A stretch of DNA of 64,000 nucleotides from Gemmatimonadota bacterium (lineage in GTDB: Bacteria > Gemmatimonadota > Gemmatimonadetes > Gemmatimonadales > GWC2-71-9). Numbering within the stretch: position 1 is the first letter of the stretch; the number at the start of each line of letters is the position of its first letter. Below are positions 10,323-38,911 of the stretch, piece after piece. Location: contig SHZT01000004.1 in the NCBI GenBank assembly GCA_009692185.1, positions 124,001 through 188,000 of the forward strand. The letters run 5' to 3'. Below the pieces are notes generated by a model. That model saw only the letters and a list, made by a program, of their open reading frames with translations, had not been told where the DNA came from and searched no databases. The position numbers were made by a program, and so were the translations under genes.

Positions 10323-11314
10323 ACGGCCGCCTCAGCCGCGTCCGCGGCTGCCACCTGCTGGATGAACACGTCTTCGAGGCCGGGCTCGATCTCGTGCACG
10401 TCGAGCAGGTCCACGCCGGCGTTCCGGAGGCCGGCTTCGAGGCCGGGCCAGTCCCGCTCGCGTGATTCGATCGTCACGTGAATCGTGTCGCCAAAAAGCG
10501 CCGCGCGACGGACGCCCGGTGCCGCCCGGAGCAGGTCCAGCGCCTGGCGGCCGTTCGATGGGCGGACAGCCAGCATGTGTCCGCCCAGGTTCTTCTGCAG
10601 GGCCGCGGGCCGGTCCAGCGCGATGATCCGGCCCCGATTGATGAGCCCGACGTGGTCACACCGCTCGGCTTCGTCCATGTACGCCATGGTGACCAGGACC
10701 GTCACACCCTCGGCGACCATCTCGTGCAGGATCAGCCACAGGTCCCGCCGGGAAATGGGGTCCACGCCGAAGGTGGGCTCGTCGAGCAGGAGGATCTCGG
10801 GGCGGTGAATCAGCGCACAGCAGAGCGAGAGCTTCTGCTTCATGCCGCCCGAGAGCTTTCCGGCCAGGCGGTTTTCGAAAGGCCCCAGAGCCGAGAAGTG
10901 GTACAGCCGCTCGAGGCGCGCGGGACGTTCGGCCGCCGGCACCCGGTACAGGTCCGCGTAGAAGTCGATGTTCTCGCGGACGGTCAGGTCGGTGTAGAGC
11001 CCGAACCGCTGGGACATGTATGCGATCCGGTGTTTCACGCCCTCGGGATCCCGGACGACCGACGTCCCGCCCACCAGGGCATCGCCCGACGTGGGGCGGA
11101 GGACGCCGGAGAGCATCCGGAGCGTCGTCGTCTTCCCCGCGCCGTCCGGGCCAACCAGGCCGAAGAGTTCACCTGGTTGCACGTCGAACGAAATGCCATC
11201 GACGGCCGTGAGGTCTTTGAACTTTCGGGTCAGCGCGCGGAGGGAGATTGCCGGCCGGGGGTCACCATCCGCCCATCCGCCCATCCGCCCATCCGCCTGC
11301 CCTTCCGTCGTCAT
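10319..11314 (-). CDS. ABC transporter ATP-binding protein with repeat-derived N-terminal extension
   Basis: GPDGAGKTTTLRML, LSGGMKQKLSLCCALIHRPEILLLDEPTFGVDP; N-terminus MTTEGQADGRMGGWADGDPRPAISLRAL is encoded by 8-bp repeats. Confidence 0.93.
   Translation of the reverse strand: MTTEGQADGRMGGWADGDPRPAISLRALTRKFKDLTAVDGISFDVQPGELFGLVGPDGAGKTTTLRMLSGVLRPTSGDALVGGTSVVRDPEGVKHRIAYMSQRFGLYTDLTVRENIDFYADLYRVPAAERPARLERLYHFSALGPFENRLAGKLSGGMKQKLSLCCALIHRPEILLLDEPTFGVDPISRRDLWLILHEMVAEGVTVLVTMAYMDEAERCDHVGLINRGRIIALDRPAALQKNLGGHMLAVRPSNGRQALDLLRAAPGVRRAALFGDTIHVTIESRERDWPGLEAGLRNAGVDLLDVHEIEPGLEDVFIQQVAAADAAEAAV
11265..11297. repeat. Element A: single-arm 8-bp tandem repeat (CATCCGCC)n in the N-terminal coding part of an ABC ATPase
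   Basis: CCATCCGCCCATCCGCCCATCCGCCCATCCGCC. Confidence 0.92.
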
Positions 11315-23365: not shown

Positions 23366-24524
23366 AGGCAGGGAATATAGACGCCCGGATGGGGGTTTCA
23401 GGCCCCGGGGCCTTCTCTCCGCGGAGAATGCGCTACATTACAGGACCTACGTCAAAGCTTTCCTGACTCCTATCATCGGCTGGTTCGACCCCGCCCAGAA
23501 GGGCGGTTTCCTGCGCCTGGCGGCCAACAGCTACCTCCCCGCCAAGGGCGACCCCAACGTACGCCTGCCAGGGCTGCGAAAGGGAGACTTGGTCGTGCTC
23601 GACAACGGCCGGGTCCAGTCGGTGAACGGCGTGCCCCCGGAAAAGATGGGCGAACGGCAGGTCTTCGCGAACCTGAGCGCCGTGCACCCAAGCCGCCCCA
23701 TGCTCCTCGAAACCGCCGTCCCGTCCAGTTCCCGCACCGCCGAGCTCCAGCGAGTCGTGGATCTCATCTGTCCGCTCGGGTTCGGCCAGCGCGCGCTGGT
23801 GGTGTCCCCGCCCAAGGCCGGCAAGACGATCATGCTCCAGGCCATGGCTGAAGCCGTGGCCGCCAACTACCCGGCCGCCGAGCTCCTGCTCCTCCTGGTG
23901 GATGAGCGGCCGGAGGAAGTGAGCGAGCTGATTGACTGGGGCAAGGGCGAGGTCGTGGCGTCGAGCTTCGACCTGCCCCACGAGCGTCACGTGGCGGTGG
24001 CCGACATGGTGTTCGAGCACGCCCGGCGGCAGGTGGAGCTGGGCCGGGACGTGGTGATCGTGCTGGACTCGATCACCCGGCTCGCCCGCTCGCACAACAC
24101 GGCCGGGCGTTCGAGCGGCCGCACGATGTCCGGCGGCCTCGACGCCAACGCGCTGGCCAAGCCCAAGGGTCTTTTCGGCGCCGCGCGCGCCGTGCCCGAT
24201 GGCGGCTCGCTGACGGTGATCGCGACCGCGCTGGTCGAGACTGAGAGCCGCATGGACGACATCATCTTCGAGGAGTTCAAGGGAACCGGCAACGCGGAGC
24301 TCCGGCTGAGCCGTTCCCTGGCCGACCGGCGCATCTACCCCGCGCTGGATATTGCCGCGAGCGGTACCCGGCGCGAAGAGCTGCTGTCCGACCCCGCTAC
24401 GGTTGAGGCTAAACAAAAGCTCCGGCGGGATCTCGTGGATCAGCCGCCGGAGCGCGCGATGGAAATCCTGCTGCAGCTCATGCGCCGGTCCAAGACCAAC
24501 GCCGAGCTGCTCAAGTCCTCCTAG
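23334..24524 (+). CDS. rho: Transcription termination factor Rho, short form (start uncertain)
   Basis: [82 protein letters not shown]; no convincing start near the conserved N-terminus. Confidence 0.92.
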
Positions 24525-26065
24525 GGCTGGGGCGGCTGGACGATGCTCTTGTATGACTCCGGGTTCCACTTGGGCTTTTCCGCAGCGTTCGCGAGGTCCA
24601 GCCCGAGGTAGAACACCAGCTTCACGATCCGCGATTCCTTCTCCCCGTCAATCTTCGACACTTCATCTCCCCGCCCGTGGTAGTCGGGGTGCGTCCCGTT
24701 GAAGAAGAACAGGATCGGCACGCCCTTCTGCGCGAAGTTGTAGTGGTCGGATCGCTGGTAGAAGTGTTCTTCCGGCCAGATGTCGTCGATCGCGGTCATG
24801 TTAAGCTCGGGGTGCGCGGCGTTCACGCGGTTGAGCGTGGCGCCCAGGTCCGAGTGCTCCTTCCCGATCGCGACGATCGTGTCCTTCCAGTTCCGCCCCA
24901 CCATGTCGGTGTTCAGGTCCGCGATGACCTGCGACATCTCGACCGGCGGGTGGAGGCTGAAGTACTCGCTGCCCCAGAGCCCGCGTTCCTCGCCGCTCAC
25001 CGTGAGAAAGATGAGCGAGCGCTTCGGCCGCGGAGTGAGTTTCGAAAACGCCTGCGCCAGCTGAACGACCGCGATCGTGCCCGATGCGTCGTCATCGGCG
25101 CCATTGAAGATGGAATCGCCTGTGGCGTCGGGCGTGCCGACGCCGACGTGATCCATGTGGCCGCTGAACACCACGTACTCGTTCTTGAGCACCGGGTCAC
25201 TGCCTTCGAGAATCCCGACCGCATTGGGGGCGCTCAGCGTGGCTCCGGTCTGCAGCTTGAGGGCGATGGACATGGTGAGGTCCATCGGCGTCCGCTGGGC
25301 GGGGCCGGTGGTCTGCCGAAGGGCGGCGATGTTTGCACCCCGGCGCTCGAGAGCGGCGCGTATCGCCGCCTCGCGCACGAGTATGAGGGGTGGGCGAAGC
25401 TGGCCGCTCGGGCCGCCGTCTGCCTGCCAGGCGGGGATGACCCGCGCGGCGAGCGCGTTGGTGGAGAGTACGCGCCACGCCTGATCGGCGACCGGGGTCA
25501 CCAGCACCGTGGCCGCCGGGTGCTGGGCGTTGATCGCGGTGAGGCCGCGGACGAGGGGGTTGTTCCGGCCCGTCGGGTCTTCGGGCGAGAGGAGCAGGAC
25601 GACAATGGTTCCCCCCAGCTCCAGCTGCCGTGCTGATGTCGCATCAATGGCGGAGCCGGTCACGATCACGACCTTGCCCGACGTCTCAATGTCCGCGGCG
25701 CCGACCGGAGTAGCCTCGCCGGGGATCCGGAACGATGGCCCGCCGCTCACCACTACCGTGGATGCCACCGTGTCGAGCTGGATCCGGTGCAGGGGATATC
25801 GCTGAATGAACCGGCCGCTGTCCCCGCCCGGCTTCAGGCCGAACTTCCTGAACTCCCCGCCAATGAAGGTCGCGACCTTTTCAAGCTCCGGGCTTGGTGT
25901 CGCGCGCCCGCGCATCGAATCGTGCGCAATGACCCCGATGCGCCGGATGATCTCTTCCGGGGTGATTGTGGACACCGCCTTCGCGACTGATTGATCGGTC
26001 TGGGCGGAGAGCGGGGACGCGAAGAGGGCGAGGGCGAGCGCGACGGTGAGATTGGGGCGGTTCAC
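24521..26065 (-). CDS. Secreted M28-family metallopeptidase
   Basis: Signal peptide; FSGHMDHVG..., GADDDASGTIAVVQLAQAF, SGEERGLWGSEYF. Confidence 0.88.
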   Translation of the reverse strand: MNRPNLTVALALALFASPLSAQTDQSVAKAVSTITPEEIIRRIGVIAHDSMRGRATPSPELEKVATFIGGEFRKFGLKPGGDSGRFIQRYPLHRIQLDTVASTVVVSGGPSFRIPGEATPVGAADIETSGKVVIVTGSAIDATSARQLELGGTIVVLLLSPEDPTGRNNPLVRGLTAINAQHPAATVLVTPVADQAWRVLSTNALAARVIPAWQADGGPSGQLRPPLILVREAAIRAALERRGANIAALRQTTGPAQRTPMDLTMSIALKLQTGATLSAPNAVGILEGSDPVLKNEYVVFSGHMDHVGVGTPDATGDSIFNGADDDASGTIAVVQLAQAFSKLTPRPKRSLIFLTVSGEERGLWGSEYFSLHPPVEMSQVIADLNTDMVGRNWKDTIVAIGKEHSDLGATLNRVNAAHPELNMTAIDDIWPEEHFYQRSDHYNFAQKGVPILFFFNGTHPDYHGRGDEVSKIDGEKESRIVKLVFYLGLDLANAAEKPKWNPESYKSIVQPPQP

Positions 26066-26102: not shown

Positions 26103-26175
26103 AGCGGATGAGCGGATGAGCGGATTGAATCGGCACTTATCCGCTCAACCGCTCAACCGCTCAACCGCCCATCCG
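26103..26175. repeat. Element B: 8-bp-unit inverted tandem-repeat hairpin, intergenic
   Basis: AGCGGATGAGCGGATGAGCGGATTG ... ATCCGCTCAACCGCTCAACCGCTCAACCGCCCATCCG. Confidence 0.93.
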
Positions 26176-26176
26176 T

Positions 26177-27634
26177 TCAGTTCGGGTCCTCGACCCTCCG
26201 CCCACTGCCTTCCGTCTTGGCGGGCTCGCTTGGCCGCCGTTCCGGCTGCGGCTGAGCCTTGGGTGGTGCTTCCCGGGCCTGCGGTTGCTCCCGCCGCTCA
26301 GGTTGCGGCCGCGTCTCGGGTTGGCGCTCCGGTTCCCGCGGACGCTCGACTTGCCTCGTGGTTTCCGGCTGGCGCCGTACCTCCGGCCGAGCCTGGCCGC
26401 GGTCGGTATCCGCGCGGGGCTGCGGCTTCACTTCTCGATCGGGCACGCGCCGCGTGGCCGGCGCGTCGTTCGACTGGCCCGATTCATCCTTGGGCTCCCG
26501 ACGTTCGAGCTGCGGCAACTGACGGGCATCGCCGGTCGAGGGACGGCGTATTGCCTCGCCCGCGTCCGTGCTGGGCCGGCGGCCCGACGGCTCGTTGGGC
26601 ACGACCCGCCGGTCCGGCTGGTCTGGGGTTACCCCGCGGCCTGTTTCCGCCGACGGATTGTCGTTGCCAATCACGCGCCGGCCAGGCCCCACCGCAGCAT
26701 TTCCCGCGGAGCTGCCCGACCGCGTGTCTGGCACATTGCGCCGCACGATGGGCGAGGGCACCTGTCCCACGCCGCCCAGGTCGCGGCCCCGAATGCCGGG
26801 GTCAATGAGGACTCGGCCGCCGGCGTCGTCCACCGGCCGCTGGCGCACGCGGGTCACGAAGGCTTCGCTCGGCGCACGGTTCTGAATGACGTACCGCGGC
26901 GCGATGCGGGTCGTCCTGGTGTACACGAACCGGGGCCGGCCGCCGTACCGCACGGGGTTGTAGTAGAAGTCGTCGTAGATCACCACCCGGAACCGGAAGC
27001 ACGACCGCGCATACGGGTTCCAGTACGGGAACGACGCGTAGGTGTGGCAGTCGTAGCACAGGAATCGGGGGTAGTCGTATTTCTGCTCCACATAGTAGGG
27101 CAGGATGTCATACGAGTACTCGGAGTAGTTCGCCGGCACGATCCGGTCTACCAGGTCGGTCAGCGCAACGTACGGATCACCCGTGACGCGGCCGCTGGCC
27201 GCGATCTCGCGGTAGTCCCAATGGTCGCCTCGCACCAGCGAGTTGTAGGAGAACGGATCGGCGCTGGCCACCGCGAAGAGGTAGCCCTGGCCCGGGTAGT
27301 CGTCCACGACGAACGCGTAGCGGTCGCCGTAGGACTGGGTCTCGTACCGCTGGCCGCCGCGCGCGTAGTTGTCTTCCCACGGCTCGGTGGGGAAGAGCAC
27401 ACGCAGGCGCCCGTCCGTGTCGATGCGGAACACGGTCACGTAGGCGTCCTGCGACGCGCGGAAGTACACGCGGACCTGCTGTCCGCGGCGGAAAACATCT
27501 TCTTCGTTGGACCAGACTTCGACCGACGGCGCGCCATTCGCGCCATGACGGTCAATCCGGCCAGCCGCAGGGGCGGGTGCACCGCCCGGCGGGTGTGCGA
27601 TGGCCAATGCGGCCAAGATTGTCTTGAACATCAT
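26177..27634 (-). CDS. DUF4384-like secreted protein with Arg/Pro/Glu-rich low-complexity C-terminus
   Basis: VEVWSNEEDVFRRGQQVRVYFRASQDAYVTVFRIDTDGRLRVLFPTEPWEDN; C-terminal RQPETTRQVERPREPERQPETRPQPERREQ. Confidence 0.68.
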   Translation of the reverse strand: MMFKTILAALAIAHPPGGAPAPAAGRIDRHGANGAPSVEVWSNEEDVFRRGQQVRVYFRASQDAYVTVFRIDTDGRLRVLFPTEPWEDNYARGGQRYETQSYGDRYAFVVDDYPGQGYLFAVASADPFSYNSLVRGDHWDYREIAASGRVTGDPYVALTDLVDRIVPANYSEYSYDILPYYVEQKYDYPRFLCYDCHTYASFPYWNPYARSCFRFRVVIYDDFYYNPVRYGGRPRFVYTRTTRIAPRYVIQNRAPSEAFVTRVRQRPVDDAGGRVLIDPGIRGRDLGGVGQVPSPIVRRNVPDTRSGSSAGNAAVGPGRRVIGNDNPSAETGRGVTPDQPDRRVVPNEPSGRRPSTDAGEAIRRPSTGDARQLPQLERREPKDESGQSNDAPATRRVPDREVKPQPRADTDRGQARPEVRRQPETTRQVERPREPERQPETRPQPERREQPQAREAPPKAQPQPERRPSEPAKTEGSGRRVEDPN

Positions 27635-27846
27635 GTTGCCTCCCAGCCGGCCCTCGTTGTGCTTAGCCGGCAACCTATTCCATTAAGCACGCCTTGTGCC
27701 ACCGTTCGACTATGGTCTAACACGTTGCCACGCAAGAGCATGGGGCAGGGCGGTCCATCCCCAAAACGAGGTCACCTGTCCGTGGATGGTGACACTCTGG
27801 AACTCGCGTTGACGATGTGCGTGAGCCCCCGGTACGTTCCTGCCCA

Positions 27847-28752: not shown

Positions 28753-30557
28753 TCGCGTTTCTCCAGCCGCTGTGGCTGCTCGCGTTGTCCGCGGCGGCCA
28801 TCCCGGCGCTGTTGCACCTGCGTCAGCGGCATAACCCGCCGACGATCCTGTTTCCCGCCGTCCGCTACCTCCAGCAGACCAAGCGCGAGCATAGCAAGCG
28901 GCTCAAGCTCCGGAATCTTCTCCTCCTCATGCTCCGCACGCTGATCATCATCCTCATCGTGCTGGCTGCGGCTCGGCCGGTGGCCACGGTCCAGGTCGGC
29001 GGGGTGCACACACCCACCGCGTTGGCCATCGTGGTGGACAACTCGCTGTCGTCCGGCGTCGTACTGGGCGGGCGCCGGCTGTCCGACCTGCTGGTCGAAC
29101 GGGCCCGCGAGGTCGTGGGCCGGGTGTCGGAAAGCGATCACCTGTGGCTCGTGCTGGCCGACGGGGTTCCCCACCGCGTGAGCCGCCTCGACGCGTCGCG
29201 GGTGCTGGACAGCGTCGCTCCCCAGCCGCTCCGGCTCGACCTGGGTGACGCGGTTCGCGCCGCGTCCTCGGCGGTGACCGGCGATATCCTGCCCTCGCAC
29301 GAGGTCGTGGTGTTCTCCGACCGGCAGGCCACGGCGCTCTCGCCGGGGGCGACACCCGAGGCGCGGGTGCTCGTGTGGCAGGCGCCCGACCCGGTGGAGA
29401 ACCGCGGGGTGGATTCCGCCCGGGCCGAGCCCGCTGTGTGGCGCCCCGCCGGCACGGTCATCGTGGCGGTTGGCGGGTCGGGCTCCGCACCCGGGGCTAT
29501 CCAGCTCCGGATCGGGAACCAGGAACTGGCACGCGCCGTGGCCTCGCCGGGAGAACGGGTGGCGCTCCGTCCCCGAGTCCTCCAGCGTGGCTGGTTCCGC
29601 GCCGACGTCGCGATGGATCCCGACGAACTGCGCATGGACGACGAGTGGCACTTGGCGGTGCGCGTGGCAGAGCCGGCGGCCGCGCACGCCGGAGTCGGGG
29701 CCGGCCGGTTCGTGCGGGAGGGCCTCTCGGTGCTGCAAGGGTCCGGGCGCGTCGGCACGGGCGACGTCGTCGTGCTGGATGACCGCCTCATGTCCGGCCG
29801 CGGCGTGATGTTCCCGCCCGCCGACCCCGCGATGCTGGGTGCGGCGAACCGCGCGCTTGCCGCGCGGCAGTTCCCGTGGCGGTTCGGCGATCGCGTCACG
29901 GGCGAATGGCAGCTGGGGGGGATGGTCGGCCCGGCAGCCGGCCAGCCGGTCCTCACGCGACACGTGCTCGAGGGCACGGCGGGGGCCGGCGGCCAGGTGC
30001 TCGCCACGGTTGGCGGCGAGCCCTGGATGGTGCGCAACGGAGACCTGGTCCTGATCGCGAGCCGCATCGAGCAGGACTGGACGGTTCTCCCGGTGTCGGC
30101 GGCCTTCGTCCCGTTCCTGGACCTGCTGGTGAACGAGCTGGCGACCAGCAGCTCTGTGGTCGTCCGCGGCCTTCCGGGCGAGCCGGTCGAGCTGCCGTCC
30201 AACGCGAGCACCGTGCTGGGGCCGGAAGGCCCGGGGCACGCGACCAGCGAGGGGCGCTACGCGGCCCCGCTCAAGCCAGGCGTGTATTTCCTGGCGTCGG
30301 CGGCGGGCGATACCGTGGGCGCGCTCGAGGTGAACCACGATCCGCGCGAATCGCTGCTGACGCCGGCCGACCGCCGCTCCCTCCGCGCGACACTCGGCGC
30401 CGATGCGGAGTTGCTGGACGACAACGGGATCACGCGGGAGATGTTCCGCGGCAACCGCCGGGCGGATCTCTCGGGTATGTTGATCGCCGCGGCGGTGCTC
30501 GCCGCGTTGCTGGAGTTATTCCTTGCCACGGCGGGAGGCCGCCGGGAGTCGCGGTAG
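28749..30557 (+). CDS. BatA/aerotolerance-type membrane protein
   Basis: FLQPLWLLALSAAAIPALLHLRQRHNPPTILFPAVRYLQQTKREHSKRLKLRNLLLLMLRTL; GTGA overlap with DUF58 gene. Confidence 0.82.
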   Translation: MIAFLQPLWLLALSAAAIPALLHLRQRHNPPTILFPAVRYLQQTKREHSKRLKLRNLLLLMLRTLIIILIVLAAARPVATVQVGGVHTPTALAIVVDNSLSSGVVLGGRRLSDLLVERAREVVGRVSESDHLWLVLADGVPHRVSRLDASRVLDSVAPQPLRLDLGDAVRAASSAVTGDILPSHEVVVFSDRQATALSPGATPEARVLVWQAPDPVENRGVDSARAEPAVWRPAGTVIVAVGGSGSAPGAIQLRIGNQELARAVASPGERVALRPRVLQRGWFRADVAMDPDELRMDDEWHLAVRVAEPAAAHAGVGAGRFVREGLSVLQGSGRVGTGDVVVLDDRLMSGRGVMFPPADPAMLGAANRALAARQFPWRFGDRVTGEWQLGGMVGPAAGQPVLTRHVLEGTAGAGGQVLATVGGEPWMVRNGDLVLIASRIEQDWTVLPVSAAFVPFLDLLVNELATSSSVVVRGLPGEPVELPSNASTVLGPEGPGHATSEGRYAAPLKPGVYFLASAAGDTVGALEVNHDPRESLLTPADRRSLRATLGADAELLDDNGITREMFRGNRRADLSGMLIAAAVLAALLELFLATAGGRRESR

Positions 30558-30609
30558 CAGGGCAGTAGAAGGGACGGATGCAGGAGGACGGTCGAGTGGG
30601 GGTCAACTG

Positions 30610-33600
30610 ATGCTGTCTCACCTCGTCGGCGCGATTCGATCGCTGCCGACGTTTTCGTCGTTGCTGGAATCGCTTCCGGCGCGTTCTGCCGAGACATCGG
30701 TCGCGGGTTTGCCCGGGTCCTCGCCGGCCGTGTTGCTCGCGGCGCTCGCCGAGGCCCTGCCGCAACGCGTGTTGCTGGTGGTGGCGCCCGGGCCCGCCGA
30801 AGCGGAGCGGTGGCTCGCGGACCTCGCGGTGCTCTCGCCGGAAGTCGCACGGCTCTACCCCCAGCGCGAGGCCCTGGGTGAAGAGGAGCCGCACTTTGAA
30901 ATCGCGGGCGAACGGGTCGAGACGCTGGCCGACATGCTGGCCGGGCGGGCGCGGCTGGTGGTCACGACGTTGCGAGCCACGGTGGAGCGGACCCGCATGC
31001 CCGCGGCGGTCGGCGCTGCCCGGCTGGACGTCGCGCGCGGCACGACGCTCCGCCCGCAGGACCTCATCGAACGTCTCCTCTCCATGGGCTACGAGCGGAA
31101 GCCGTCCGTGCTTGACGTCGCGCAGTTCGCCGTGCGGGGCGGGATCGTGGACGTCTACGGGTTCGGCATGGCCGGCCCCGCGCGCATCGAGTGGTCGGGA
31201 GACGAGGTCCAGAGCATTCGATACTTCGATTTGGACTCCCAACGCTCGGAGAAGGAGACGGATTCGATCACCGTGTTGCCCGTTCGGGCGAATGACGGGA
31301 TCCAAGCGGATGAGCGGATGAGCGGATGGGCGGATGAAAAGCTCGACAATCAACCGCTCAACCGCTCAACTGCTCATCCGCCCCGCCAATCGCTGCTGGA
31401 TCTTCTGCCGTCCGATGCGCTCCTCATTGTGACTGAGGGCGTCGAGCTCGCCGAAGTCGGCCGCATCTGGGACGAAGCAGTGCACCACCTGGACGTCGCG
31501 CGGCGGCGGGGGGAAGACGTGCCCGGGCGCGACACGATCTACCTCGCGCCGGAAACGTGGAGCGGCGCGTGGCAGGGATTCGCCCGCCTGTGGCTCAACC
31601 GCGAGCCGGCAGACGTGGACTTCCACATGTTCGCGCCCGAGGCGGTGGAGCGGGACATCGGGCGGATCGTGCGCCTGGCCCGCGGCCAGCCGGTCCTGGT
31701 GCTGTGTGACAACGAGGGCCAGCTCGAGCGGCTGGAGGAATTGATCGAGATCGCCGACCCCACGGCGCGGCACTCGGGCGTCCAGGTGACGCTCGCGCTG
31801 GGCGCGTTGCACGGCGGGTTCGTGCTCAAGGGCCTCACCGTCCTCACGGACCACGAAATCTTCCGCCGCGCCCGGCGGCTCCGGCGCCCGCGACGCTACC
31901 GGCAGTCGCTCACCGCGGGGGCCGCCGGCTCGCTCGCCACCGGCGACTACGTGGTGCACCTGGAGCACGGGATCGGGATCTACCGCGGCATCACGACGAT
32001 CGCGGTCGGCGAAAGCGCGCTCGAAGTGGCGGTGCTGGAGTACGAGGGCGGCGACCGGCTGAACGTCCCGCTCTACCGGCTGGACCAGATCGAGCCCTAC
32101 CGCGCGGCGCCCGACGCCGACTCGCCCGCGCCCCGCATCGACCAGCTGGGCTCCACGCGGTGGCGGAAGCAGCGCGCCACGACGGAGCGGGCGATCCGCG
32201 AGATGGCGGTGGAACTGCTTGACCTGTACGCCAGGCGGACCCTGGCCAAGGGCTCCGCGATGCCACCCGACACCAAGTGGCAGCGCGAACTGGAGTCGTC
32301 CTTCCTGTACGAAGACACGCCGGACCAGCGTTCGGCGACGCTGGCGGTGAAGCAGGACATGGAGCGCGCGCGGCCCATGGACCGCCTGGTCGTCGGCGAC
32401 GTAGGCTACGGGAAGACAGAGGTGGCGATTCGGGCCGCCTTCAAGGCGGTGCAGGGCGGCAAGCAGGTGGCAGTGCTGGTTCCGACGACGATTCTCGCGG
32501 AACAGCACGGCCGGACATTCGCCGACCGGATGGCGGATTTCCCCGTTCGGGTTGAAGTCCTGTCCCGCTTCCGCACGACCCGCGAGCAGAAGGACGTGTT
32601 GCGCCGGCTGAAGGAAGGCGTGGTGGACATCGTCATCGGGACCCATCGCCTGCTGTCCGCCGACGTGGAGTTCAAGGAACTGGGGCTCATCGTGGTGGAC
32701 GAGGAACACCGTTTCGGCGTCAAGCACAAAGAGCGGCTCAAGGCGCTCAAGCTCGAGATCCACGTGCTGACGCTGACCGCGACGCCCATTCCCCGGACGC
32801 TCCACCTGGCGCTGTCGGGTCTCAGGGACCTCACGCTGATCGAAACACCGCCGCGGGATCGTTCGCCGGTGCTCACGTTCGTCGAGCCGTGGGACGACGA
32901 GTTGCTGGAGGAGGCGCTCGCGCGCGAGCTGGATCGCGGCGGGCAGGCGTTCCTGGTGCACAACCGCATCGAGACGATCGAGTCCATTGGGCAACGCGTG
33001 AACCGGCTGGCGCCGCGCGCGCGGGTGGCCGTGGCCCACGGGCAGATGGCGGAGCGCGAACTGGATGACGTCATGCGCCGCTTCGTCGCCGGCGACGTGG
33101 ACGTCCTGGTGTCCACGATGATCGTCGAGTCGGGGCTCGACGTGCCGAACGCCAACACGATGATTGTCCATCACGCCGATCAGTTCGGCCTGGCCCAGCT
33201 CTACCAGTTGAGGGGCCGGGTGGGTCGCGGCCACCGTCGCGCGTACTGCTACCTGCTCGCGTCCGACCATTCAGACCAGGCCGCGGAAGAGCGCCTGCTC
33301 GTGCTGGAACACCACACCGAGCTGGGGTCGGGGTACCGTATCGCGCTTCGAGACCTGGAGATCCGGGGCGCCGGGAACCTCCTCGGGTCCCAGCAGTCCG
33401 GCCACGCGCATGCGGTCGGGTACGATCTCTACCTCCGCTGGCTCAACGATGCGGTCAAAGCGCTGAAGGGAGAGGCCGAAGGCGTAGTGCACCCACCGCC
33501 CGAGGTGAGCATGGACGGCGCGGCCCACCTGGCCGATGGATACATCACGGATGACGGGGCGAAACTCGACTTCTACCGGCGGCTGGCGCGGGCCAGCGAC

Positions 33601-33936
33601 CCCGGCGAGATTGCGATCTTGCGAGAGGAATTGCGCGACCGGTTCGGCCCATTGCCCGCGGAAGCAGACCGCCTGCTCATGGTCTGCGAGTTGCGGGCAC
33701 TTGGCGCCAAGGTCGGCCTGGAAACGGTGCTCGTCCGCGGCGACGAGGCGCGGCTCAACTTCCGCGCGGGCGCGGCGCCACGGCTGGCGCGGCTCCACGC
33801 GGCGCTGGACCAGGTGCAGTTCGCCGCCGAAGTCCGGCGCACCACGCCCCTTTCGCTCCGCCTTACTCGCCTGGGAGGGATCCCAATTGGGCCGGGATTG
33901 GTGCGCGCACTTGCCACCGCTGCGGGAGGAAATTGA
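30610..33936 (+). CDS. mfd: Transcription-repair coupling factor Mfd with repeat-encoded insert
   Basis: RPMDRLVVGDVGYGKTEVAIRAAFKAVQGGKQVAVLVPTTILAEQH, VDEEHRFGVKHKERLK, QLYQLRGRVGRGHRRAYCYLL. Confidence 0.97.
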   Translation: MLSHLVGAIRSLPTFSSLLESLPARSAETSVAGLPGSSPAVLLAALAEALPQRVLLVVAPGPAEAERWLADLAVLSPEVARLYPQREALGEEEPHFEIAGERVETLADMLAGRARLVVTTLRATVERTRMPAAVGAARLDVARGTTLRPQDLIERLLSMGYERKPSVLDVAQFAVRGGIVDVYGFGMAGPARIEWSGDEVQSIRYFDLDSQRSEKETDSITVLPVRANDGIQADERMSGWADEKLDNQPLNRSTAHPPRQSLLDLLPSDALLIVTEGVELAEVGRIWDEAVHHLDVARRRGEDVPGRDTIYLAPETWSGAWQGFARLWLNREPADVDFHMFAPEAVERDIGRIVRLARGQPVLVLCDNEGQLERLEELIEIADPTARHSGVQVTLALGALHGGFVLKGLTVLTDHEIFRRARRLRRPRRYRQSLTAGAAGSLATGDYVVHLEHGIGIYRGITTIAVGESALEVAVLEYEGGDRLNVPLYRLDQIEPYRAAPDADSPAPRIDQLGSTRWRKQRATTERAIREMAVELLDLYARRTLAKGSAMPPDTKWQRELESSFLYEDTPDQRSATLAVKQDMERARPMDRLVVGDVGYGKTEVAIRAAFKAVQGGKQVAVLVPTTILAEQHGRTFADRMADFPVRVEVLSRFRTTREQKDVLRRLKEGVVDIVIGTHRLLSADVEFKELGLIVVDEEHRFGVKHKERLKALKLEIHVLTLTATPIPRTLHLALSGLRDLTLIETPPRDRSPVLTFVEPWDDELLEEALARELDRGGQAFLVHNRIETIESIGQRVNRLAPRARVAVAHGQMAERELDDVMRRFVAGDVDVLVSTMIVESGLDVPNANTMIVHHADQFGLAQLYQLRGRVGRGHRRAYCYLLASDHSDQAAEERLLVLEHHTELGSGYRIALRDLEIRGAGNLLGSQQSGHAHAVGYDLYLRWLNDAVKALKGEAEGVVHPPPEVSMDGAAHLADGYITDDGAKLDFYRRLARASDPGEIAILREELRDRFGPLPAEADRLLMVCELRALGAKVGLETVLVRGDEARLNFRAGAAPRLARLHAALDQVQFAAEVRRTTPLSLRLTRLGGIPIGPGLVRALATAAGGN
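31304..31384. repeat. Element C: 8-bp-unit inverted tandem-repeat hairpin inside mfd
   Basis: AAGCGGATGAGCGGATGAGCGGATGGGCGGATG ... CAACCGCTCAACCGCTCAACTGCTCATCCGCCC. Confidence 0.94.
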
Positions 33937-36812: not shown

Positions 36813-37715
36813 GTGGCCGCGGTCCTCAGGGATCCCCCCGTGGCGGCGGACTACGTCGTCATCGGCCCGGCCGATCTCATCTGGGATCTTCCCGGAGAAC
36901 AGGTTGCCGTTGGAGGGACTGGAGACGAGAGACGCGAGACAAGTGGTACGCGTCCCTCGTCTCGCGTCTTCCCCATCACCATGGTCCCGCAGGTCGCCGG
37001 GAAACTCGCCGGACTGGCTGTGGAAGATGCTGTCCGCCGCGCTCTCTCCGGTGACGTGGATGCCATCGTCACTGCTCCCGCCGAAAAGAAAGCGCTGCAC
37101 CTGGCCGGGTATCAGTACCCGGGCCACACTGAGTGGCTCGCGGCGCTGGCAGGCAACGTGCCGGTCGCCATGATGCTCGCCTCCGATCGCCTCAGGGTCG
37201 TGCTGGTCACGACCCACCTCGCGCTCAAGGACGTTCCGGCCTCCCTGACCCAGGGCAAGATCGTGAGCGTGGGACGGGTGACGAGGGACGCGTTGCGGGC
37301 ATGGTGGGGCATCGAGAGCCCAAGGCTCGCCCTGTGTGCGCTCAACCCCCACGCCGGTGAGGGCGGCATGTTCGGCAAGGAAGACGAGACGATCCTCGCC
37401 CCGGCCGCGCGGCTCCTGGACGCTGCGGGACCGCTCCCGGCTGATACGGTGTTCGTCAGGGCGATCAAGGGAGAGTTCGATGCGGTGCTGGCGCCATATC
37501 ACGACGTGGGCATGACTGCCATCAAGGTGGCGTCATTCGGTCACGCGGTGAACATCACGCTTGGTCTTCCGTTCATCCGCACGTCGCCCGATCATGGAAC
37601 GGCGTTCGATATCGCAGGGAAGGGCATCGCGGACGCCAGCTCGATGCGGGAGGCGGTGAAGATGGCCGTGCAGTTGGCGGGGCGGAAGCAAGCGGATGAG
37701 CGGATGAGCGGATGA
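36813..37715 (+). CDS. pdxA: 4-hydroxythreonine-4-phosphate dehydrogenase (5' end extends to about 36750)
   Basis: VAITLGDPRGIGPEIVAAVLRD upstream of the listed start; ALNPHAGEGGMFGKEDE, LPFIRTSPDHGTAFDIAGKGIAD. Confidence 0.92.
   Translation: MAAVLRDPPVAADYVVIGPADLIWDLPGEQVAVGGTGDERRETSGTRPSSRVFPITMVPQVAGKLAGLAVEDAVRRALSGDVDAIVTAPAEKKALHLAGYQYPGHTEWLAALAGNVPVAMMLASDRLRVVLVTTHLALKDVPASLTQGKIVSVGRVTRDALRAWWGIESPRLALCALNPHAGEGGMFGKEDETILAPAARLLDAAGPLPADTVFVRAIKGEFDAVLAPYHDVGMTAIKVASFGHAVNITLGLPFIRTSPDHGTAFDIAGKGIADASSMREAVKMAVQLAGRKQADERMSG
36921..36973. repeat. Element G: 7-bp-unit inverted repeat inside pdxA
   Basis: GGAGACGAGAGACGCGAGACAAG ... CCCTCGTCTCGCGTCTTCCCC. Confidence 0.85.
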
Positions 37716-37783
37716 GCGCATGAGCGGACGACGCCTGATGTCCCGTTCTTTATCTGCTCATCCGCCTATCCGCTCATCCGTCC
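37690..37783. repeat. Element E: 8-bp-unit inverted tandem-repeat hairpin across the pdxA stop
   Basis: AAGCGGATGAGCGGATGAGCGGATGAGCGCATGAGCGGACG ... TCTGCTCATCCGCCTATCCGCTCATCCGTCC. Confidence 0.94.
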
Positions 37784-38140
37784 ACGGAGCCCTCCATGCA
37801 GACTGATGCTCGAGAGATTTCAATGGATGATCTGCGGGACGCGCTATCCCGAGGCGAGCCGGTCACCGTGCTCGACATTCGTCACGCCCCGGACAGTGCC
37901 GAGTGGTCCATTCCCGGCAGTCTCCACTTGGACGTGTACGACGCCGTCGGGATGAACGATGCCGGGGCGCTCGGTGCTTTCACCCCGCCGTCCAGCGCGC
38001 CGGTTGTCACCGTGTGCTACCGCGGCAACACCAGCCTCCTCGCCATGGCCCAGCTTCGCCAGCGCGGCATCGAGGCCGTGTCGCTCCACGGCGGGATGCG
38101 GGCGTGGACGCTGGCGTGGAACGTGGCGGACGTGGAAGGG

Positions 38141-38171
38141 GTGGATGGGCGGATAGGCGGATGGGCGGATG
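38141..38171. repeat. Element F: 8-bp tandem arm inside the rhodanese-MBL gene
   Basis: GTGGATGGGCGGATAGGCGGATGGGCGGATG. Confidence 0.9.
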
Positions 38172-38527
38172 TTTTGCAAGTTCGGCGCACAGGAAAGGGC
38201 TGCCTGTCCTACCTCGTGGGATCCGCCGGTAAGGCTGCCGTGATTGATCCGTCCATCGATGCGCAGGTCTACATGGACCTGGCGGCAGAGCGGAAATGGA
38301 CGATCGTGGCGGTCCTCGACACCCACGTCCATGCCGATCACCTTTCGCGAGCGCGCACGCTGGTGGAAATGTCCGGTGCGAAGGTCTACCTGCCGGCGCA
38401 GAACCGCGTGAAGTACCCGTTCACGGCATTGAACGACGGCGATGTGGTGACAGTGGGCGACGCGACCCTCACGACGTTGGCAACTCCCGGCCACACATTC
38501 GAAAGCGCCTGCTACCTGCTGGAATCA

Positions 38528-38544
38528 CCATCCGCCCATCCGCC
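38528..38544. repeat. Element F': short complementary 8-bp tandem arm at the frameshift of the rhodanese-MBL gene
   Basis: CCATCCGCCCATCCGCC; its reverse complement GGCGGATGGGCGGATGG matches element F over about 16 nt. Confidence 0.9.
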
Positions 38545-38911
38545 GTCTTTTCCGGCGACACGCTCTTCCTCGCGAGCGTTGGCCGTCCTGGCCTCGCCGC
38601 CAAGGCCGACGAGGAAACCAAGAAGCGTGCGGGGCTGCTCTACGCCTCGCTCCAGCGGCTCAAGGCCCTGCCCGCGACGACCCTCGTCCTGCCCTGCCAC
38701 ACGAGTGAGCCGGTGGCCTTCGATGGGAAGGCGCTGTCATGTACGATAGAAGAAGCGTGTCGCAACGCGAAGATGCTGAGCCTGTCCGAAGCGGATTTTG
38801 TTGAGGCCCTGCTGGCCCGAATCCCCGCACCACCGGCCAACCACCTGCGCATTGTCCAGCTGAACGAAAGGGGAGAACTGCCTGCGGACCCGAGGGACCT
38901 GGAGGCCGGGG

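Follow-up and report, generated by a model that had tools for sequence, protein, structure and literature searches.

The intergenic element at positions 26103-26176 of the 64,000-nucleotide stretch analysed here (the window) raises the question of how one octamer came to lie, in inverted tandem arms, at several loci of the same genome. The element, called B below, consists of AGCGGATGAGCGGATGAGCGGAT, a loop and (TCAACCGC)n, with GCGGATGA present about three times ahead of the 12-nt loop and the complementary unit (TCAACCGC/CCATCCGC) about five times behind it. Its parts and flanking genes, the gene positions here and below coming from a custom-made gene finder, are as follows.

26103..26125, plus strand: purine-rich arm of B, (GCGGATGA)~3; the 3′ hairpin arm in the transcript of the minus-strand gene
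26126..26137, no strand assigned: loop of B, a sequence found at the B locus alone
26138..26176, minus strand: second arm of B, GCGG(T/A)TGA about five times on the minus strand, directly 3′ of the stop codon of the upstream gene
26177..27673, minus strand: ORF of 498 aa, whose TGA stop codon (26177-26179) abuts B
24521..26065, minus strand: ORF downstream of B, weakly aminopeptidase-like, starting 38 nt past B

No NCBIfam match was obtained for the ORF at 26177..27673. Because B adjoins the stop codon of this minus-strand gene, a purine-rich arm comes first in the transcript of that gene. No U-tract, the mark of an intrinsic terminator, was found after the stem at B or at the similar element in mfd, and weak terminator-type sites in the region numbered 6 against 4.5 expected. 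No Rfam family matched between 25800 and 38200. The other arrays considered in the window, with their host genes, are listed here.

31305..31337, plus strand: first arm of the mfd element, GCGGATGA twice, GCGGATGG, GCGGATGA; in frame within mfd, the in-frame TGA reading TGG
31350..31381, minus strand: second arm of the mfd element, TCAACCGC twice, TCAACTGC, TCATCCGC (plus-strand reading)
30523..33936, plus strand: mfd gene (TIGR00580), host of the in-frame element
37691..37730, plus strand: first arm of the pdxA element, providing the pdxA stop codon (C-terminus ADERMSG*)
37751..37781, minus strand: second arm of the pdxA element
36813..37715, plus strand: pdxA gene (TIGR00557)
11265..11297, minus strand: single array, GCGGATGG four times, at the N-terminus of an ABC-transporter ATPase gene
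38139..38171, plus strand: single in-frame array within the linker of a rhodanese/metallo-beta-lactamase-fold gene
38528..38543, minus strand: two-unit array, beyond which the rhodanese/metallo-beta-lactamase-fold gene resumes in another frame

The mfd element (31305-31381) and the pdxA element (37691-37781) are both built like B, and the GCGGATGA octamer in inverted tandem arms is common to all three, as the first-pass annotation had proposed. That annotation had also read a common stretch in B and the mfd element, and indeed both contain the 20-mer CAACCGCTCAACCGCTCAAC and the translation QPLNRSTAHP. The pdxA element has only the left-arm unit in common with B, its right arm being made of CATCCGC/CTATCCGC and not of CAACCGC. 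The loci had been called unlinked, which is correct in that they belong to different genes and incorrect in that all three lie within 12 kb. Predicted RNA folds are very stable stems, with z = -6.9 for B, -9.0 for mfd and -8.0 for pdxA. Searching the window for GCGGATGAGCGGATGA with at most 3 mismatches gave 27 matches against 1.6 expected, a number reached by 0 of 100 shuffles, and the GCGGTTGA form gave 10 matches against 0.07 expected; this excess excludes chance as the source of the octamer arrays in the window. In the rhodanese/metallo-beta-lactamase-fold gene (37796-38749), the reading frame shifts (VFSGDTLFLASVGRPGL...) past the two-unit array at 38529-38543, which either breaks the gene in this assembly or marks a phase-variable frame.

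Further copies, for which a genome-wide search had been suggested, proved to be numerous. The exact double octamer has 34 matches in this 2.63 Mb genome (G000) and the reversed control none, while the degenerate form with at most 2 mismatches has 257 against 34 for the control. Reading the sequence around the exact matches listed led to at least 45 clusters, a minimum, to which the cluster statistics for G000 refer. The octamer consensus is GCGG(A/T)TG(A/G), and four units are present in 37 of the 60 octamer arms. By a strict rule, 15/45 clusters are full inverted pairs, the purine arm being first in 15 and the order reversed in 0; across several genomes, the purine arm is first in 26 of 28 pairs and second in 2. 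The remaining 30 clusters have a single arm by this rule; for 14 of them, one or more complementary units lie no farther than 70 nt away on the side where they would be expected. Each locus has its own loop and flanks, the loops being unrelated between loci by inspection. Unit length ranges from 7 to 15 nt between loci, and some 7-mers, for example GGGAAAA, occur elsewhere in G000. The search for target-site duplications that the first-pass annotation had called for gave none above chance (direct repeats in the flanks of 2.33 nt, and of 2.21 nt in cross-element controls). Nested layouts were observed at two loci (L155, 9940-10106; L268, 14440-14548), with an 8-mer pair around a 7-mer pair and a pair with a terminator-like hairpin in its loop. 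In addition, an octamer-family hairpin lies inside a tRNA-like sequence (L052, positions 200-400, contig G000:C28), with D-arm and T-arm motifs flanking one arm; ARAGORN reported one intact tRNA-Pro only, adjoining this sequence. Possibly, the element has disrupted a tRNA gene.

Most clusters are found at gene ends, where in several cases the array begins right after a TAG stop codon or provides a TGA stop. The C-terminus ADERMSG* with its array-supplied TGA is shared by pdxA and two other genes. Inside genes, in frame, are 18 of the 45 clusters in G000, for which a role at the 3′ end is thus impossible. The host genes encode IleRS, DnaE, Mfd, HemN and a dTDP-glucose dehydratase, as well as an ArnT-like transferase (two clusters), a penicillin acylase (two clusters) and others; these names come from reading the sequence by eye, except that Mfd and PdxA were assigned by TIGR00580 and TIGR00557. 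Arrays within genes are either pyrimidine-rich in the sense direction or have the in-frame TGA altered, as in mfd (GCGGATGA to GCGGATGG).

Distant relatives do not have identical copies at all positions, which would speak against a spread. The exact 16-mer was absent from 100 sampled family members; it has 18 matches in one Gemmatimonadaceae MAG outside that sample and also turns up, once or a few times, in unrelated bacteria. A congener, the single genome G034 (Mfd 73% identical), served for comparison. It contains the related octamer GCGGGTCG, with 408 matches against 168 for the control, along with 7-mers such as AAGTGAG, AAGAGGG and ACACCTG and one 15-mer. Periodic arrays numbered 95 in 487 kb of G034 and 28 in 464 kb of G000, against 1 and 2, respectively, after Markov shuffling, in stretches not picked for repeats yet not strictly random, the G000 set including the window and a few G034 stretches belonging to contigs first met via repeat or gene matches; genome G111 had 1 in 100 kb. 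In G034, 23 of 86 arrays are within genes, and 34 of the 37 purine arms behind a gene 3′ end begin -17 to +33 nt from that end. One congener loop holds, by eye, a terminator-like hairpin. G034 also contains dozens of paralogues of one protein C-terminus, a large gene-family expansion, and its IleRS site (L158) is occupied by another insert, in which CTGCCCTGAGCGCAGCGAAGGG resembles a further dispersed palindromic word.

Many array sites are shared with the congener while the units differ. At orthologous gene ends, G034 has an array in 7/12 cases, built of other units than those of G000; for example, the pdxA end has GGTGTCA four times and TGACACC four times in G034 and GCGGATGA in G000, and another orthologous G034 gene end has CGGTCGGA four times right after the TGA. 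Arrays are present at 15% of G034 gene ends, or 22% where there is room, so that 7/12 corresponds to p = 0.0007 or 0.006. At orthologous sites inside genes, other-unit arrays were found in G034 at 5/12: mfd (a 15-mer hairpin), the ArnT-like gene, penicillin acylase (two sites) and nucleoside hydrolase (a 9-mer). With about 0.6% expected for a random site, this coincidence has p of about 1e-8, and at a rate of 13%, as if about 1 position in 20 tolerated insertion, p = 0.013; comparable sites are few and the two penicillin acylase sites not independent. G034 has nothing inserted at the dnaE site, which means that some insertions, at least, either are new in G000 or have been lost in G034. Sites are therefore partly shared with the congener while the sequence is replaced, and location seems longer-lived than sequence. 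Since hairpins of other units already stand at several of these sites in G034, the unit seems either to be rewritten or to move, at sites that are old or preferred. Of the earlier proposal of recent spread or conversion between loci, the lineage-specific spread of one unit type thus holds, and the spread of whole elements does not, loops and flanks being unrelated and no target-site duplication rising above chance. Our data support the conclusion that one unit type has spread in this lineage over sites partly pre-existing or preferred, and not as a transposed whole.

The closest known kind of repeat is the set of four-unit, convergently paired heptamers of Xanthomonas and Nostoc. Rehm et al. 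2015 (PMC4692102) described GGGAATC / GGGGA(C/T)T heptamers with a four-unit preference and convergent inverted pairs, on the sense strand and at most 50 nt from stop codons, with 7-11% inside genes; related species often have them between the same genes, their sequence varying, and quadruplexes were proposed for them. The arrays described here resemble these heptamers in their preference for four units (37/60 octamer arms above; 43/84 arrays in G034), in their convergent pairs with the G-rich arm first (15:0 in G000; 26:2 overall), and in the G-rich strand being the coding strand near a stop codon. They differ in the unit, which is the octamer GCGG(A/T)TG(A/G) with GG only and not GGGNATC or GGGGAYT, and in the coexistence of several unit families of 7-15 nt per genome. 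Moreover, about 40% of octamer clusters are in genes (18/45 in G000; 23/86 arrays in G034) compared with 7-11%, unit types are exchanged at orthologous sites, and the unit count is not tied to G-tracts.

Other systems share single properties only. The TAACTGA repeats of Beggiatoaceae and Cyanobacteria (PMC4679880) are likewise dispersed short tandem units with stop codons in the forward frames and rare copies at protein edges, but they are direct repeats only, mostly just upstream of start codons, and have no paired arms, unlike hairpins of the B type. REP/REPIN sequences with a RAYT are extragenic hairpins, dispersed and near stop codons, as here; they have no tandem units, and the REPs beside the RAYT gene of this genome are unrelated to the octamers. 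Rickettsia palindromic elements are palindromic and lie in frame within protein genes, each being a long conserved element and not an array of tandem units. Our arrays are compared with them on their in-frame behaviour alone. A literature search, with most subscription journals outside it, found no description of Gemmatimonadota repeats or of octamer hairpins of this type.

The proposal made for the heptamers, in which four G-tracts form a quadruplex (or i-motif), with the stem of the paired arms as a competing structure, would account for about four units per arm, and the architecture here matches that of the published repeats (PMC4692102). However, the GCGGATGA unit has GG tracts only, and G034 arrays with no GG on either strand keep four units in 8/12 cases (a small sample). 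The four-unit preference thus does without G-tracts, and a quadruplex switch is distinctly unlikely. Fixed unit register and number, together with species-specific units, could also reflect arrays of binding sites at which a lineage-specific protein recognises tandem 8-bp units; since unrelated units of 7, 8, 9, 10 and 15 nt occur in one genome, each would need its own reader, and we consider this very unlikely. A mobile palindromic element of the REP, MITE or Rickettsia type, moved by a transposase in trans, would fit arrays that are dispersed, lineage-specific and in frame within genes, and a Y1 (RAYT-like) transposase is encoded in both G000 and G034. This transposase was found in G000 (one match above the family cut-off) and in 6 of 12 sampled family relatives, and in 0 of 8 sampled genomes of two other families. 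Against mobility, loops are not shared, target duplications are absent and unit length differs (7-15 nt) among loci; the Y1 gene, moreover, has its own unrelated simple palindromes and no arrays nearby in G000. We regard mobility as unlikely. The Y1 gene (L288, 4207-4701, contig G000:C17) lies between simple palindromes (TCGCGGGCTGATAGCCCGCGCTCGGC) that make up a REP system of their own, distinct from the octamers. Mobilisation by the RAYT was rejected on account of these palindromes, and a MITE for lack of target duplication and of shared loops.

Replication slippage and template switching might also produce tandem inverted arrays everywhere, of which selection would spare only the ones located in protein loops or at gene ends. 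Such neutral by-products would agree with arrays in genes that keep the frame and avoid stops, with the one array that broke a gene's frame, with arms that do not covary at the variable position and with loops that are not shared. Their placement a few nt from the stop codon is nevertheless tighter than tolerance alone demands, sites are shared with the congener, and the unit number peaks at four with no long tail; we hold this neutral reading to be rather unlikely.

Tentatively, and with chances that we put somewhat below even, we read B as a tandem-unit hairpin at a gene end, with a function at the 3′ end and an origin by template switching, both inferred. When the upstream minus-strand gene is transcribed, a GCGG(A/T)TGA purine arm starting at the stop codon, a short loop and a complementary arm would give the mRNA a long stem at its 3′ end. 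After a stop codon, such a structure may resist exonucleases and read-through, and in-frame copies within genes would be tolerated by-products. By template switching during replication, a few units of another array could be copied into a site that is prone to hairpins or tolerates insertion. Both arms would stay alike through copying across the hairpin, with unit types replacing one another at fixed sites. The reverse-complement similarity of arms is far higher within one locus (0.84) than across loci (0.51), a sign of copying from arm to arm. The two arms do not covary at the A/T position of the unit (22/51 unit pairs mismatched), which argues that exact pairing is not strongly selected; a covarying RNA stem is unsupported at this position. 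Counting against a 3′-end hairpin are also the lack of a U-tract after B and the 30/45 single-arm clusters.

It is possible, if on the doubtful side, that a process in this bacterial family rewrites hairpin arms at fixed genomic sites, a concerted evolution of dispersed 30-bp hairpins in which the architecture (a stop codon followed by four purine-rich units, a loop and four complementary units) persists while new units, different in sequence and even in length, take over throughout the genome. Convergent four-unit repeats at stop codons were known from Xanthomonas and cyanobacteria, with no function assigned to them. The recurrence of this known architecture in another lineage, probably Gemmatimonadota, with units lacking G-tracts, speaks for conservation of the architecture and not of the quadruplex. 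New here are arrays that are octamer-based, belong to several unit families per genome and are often in genes. Through the in-frame copies, the essential proteins Mfd, DnaE and IleRS gain short peptides. Finally, congeners in which the same stop codons and protein loops carry other units constitute a natural experiment on the origin and spread of such repeats.
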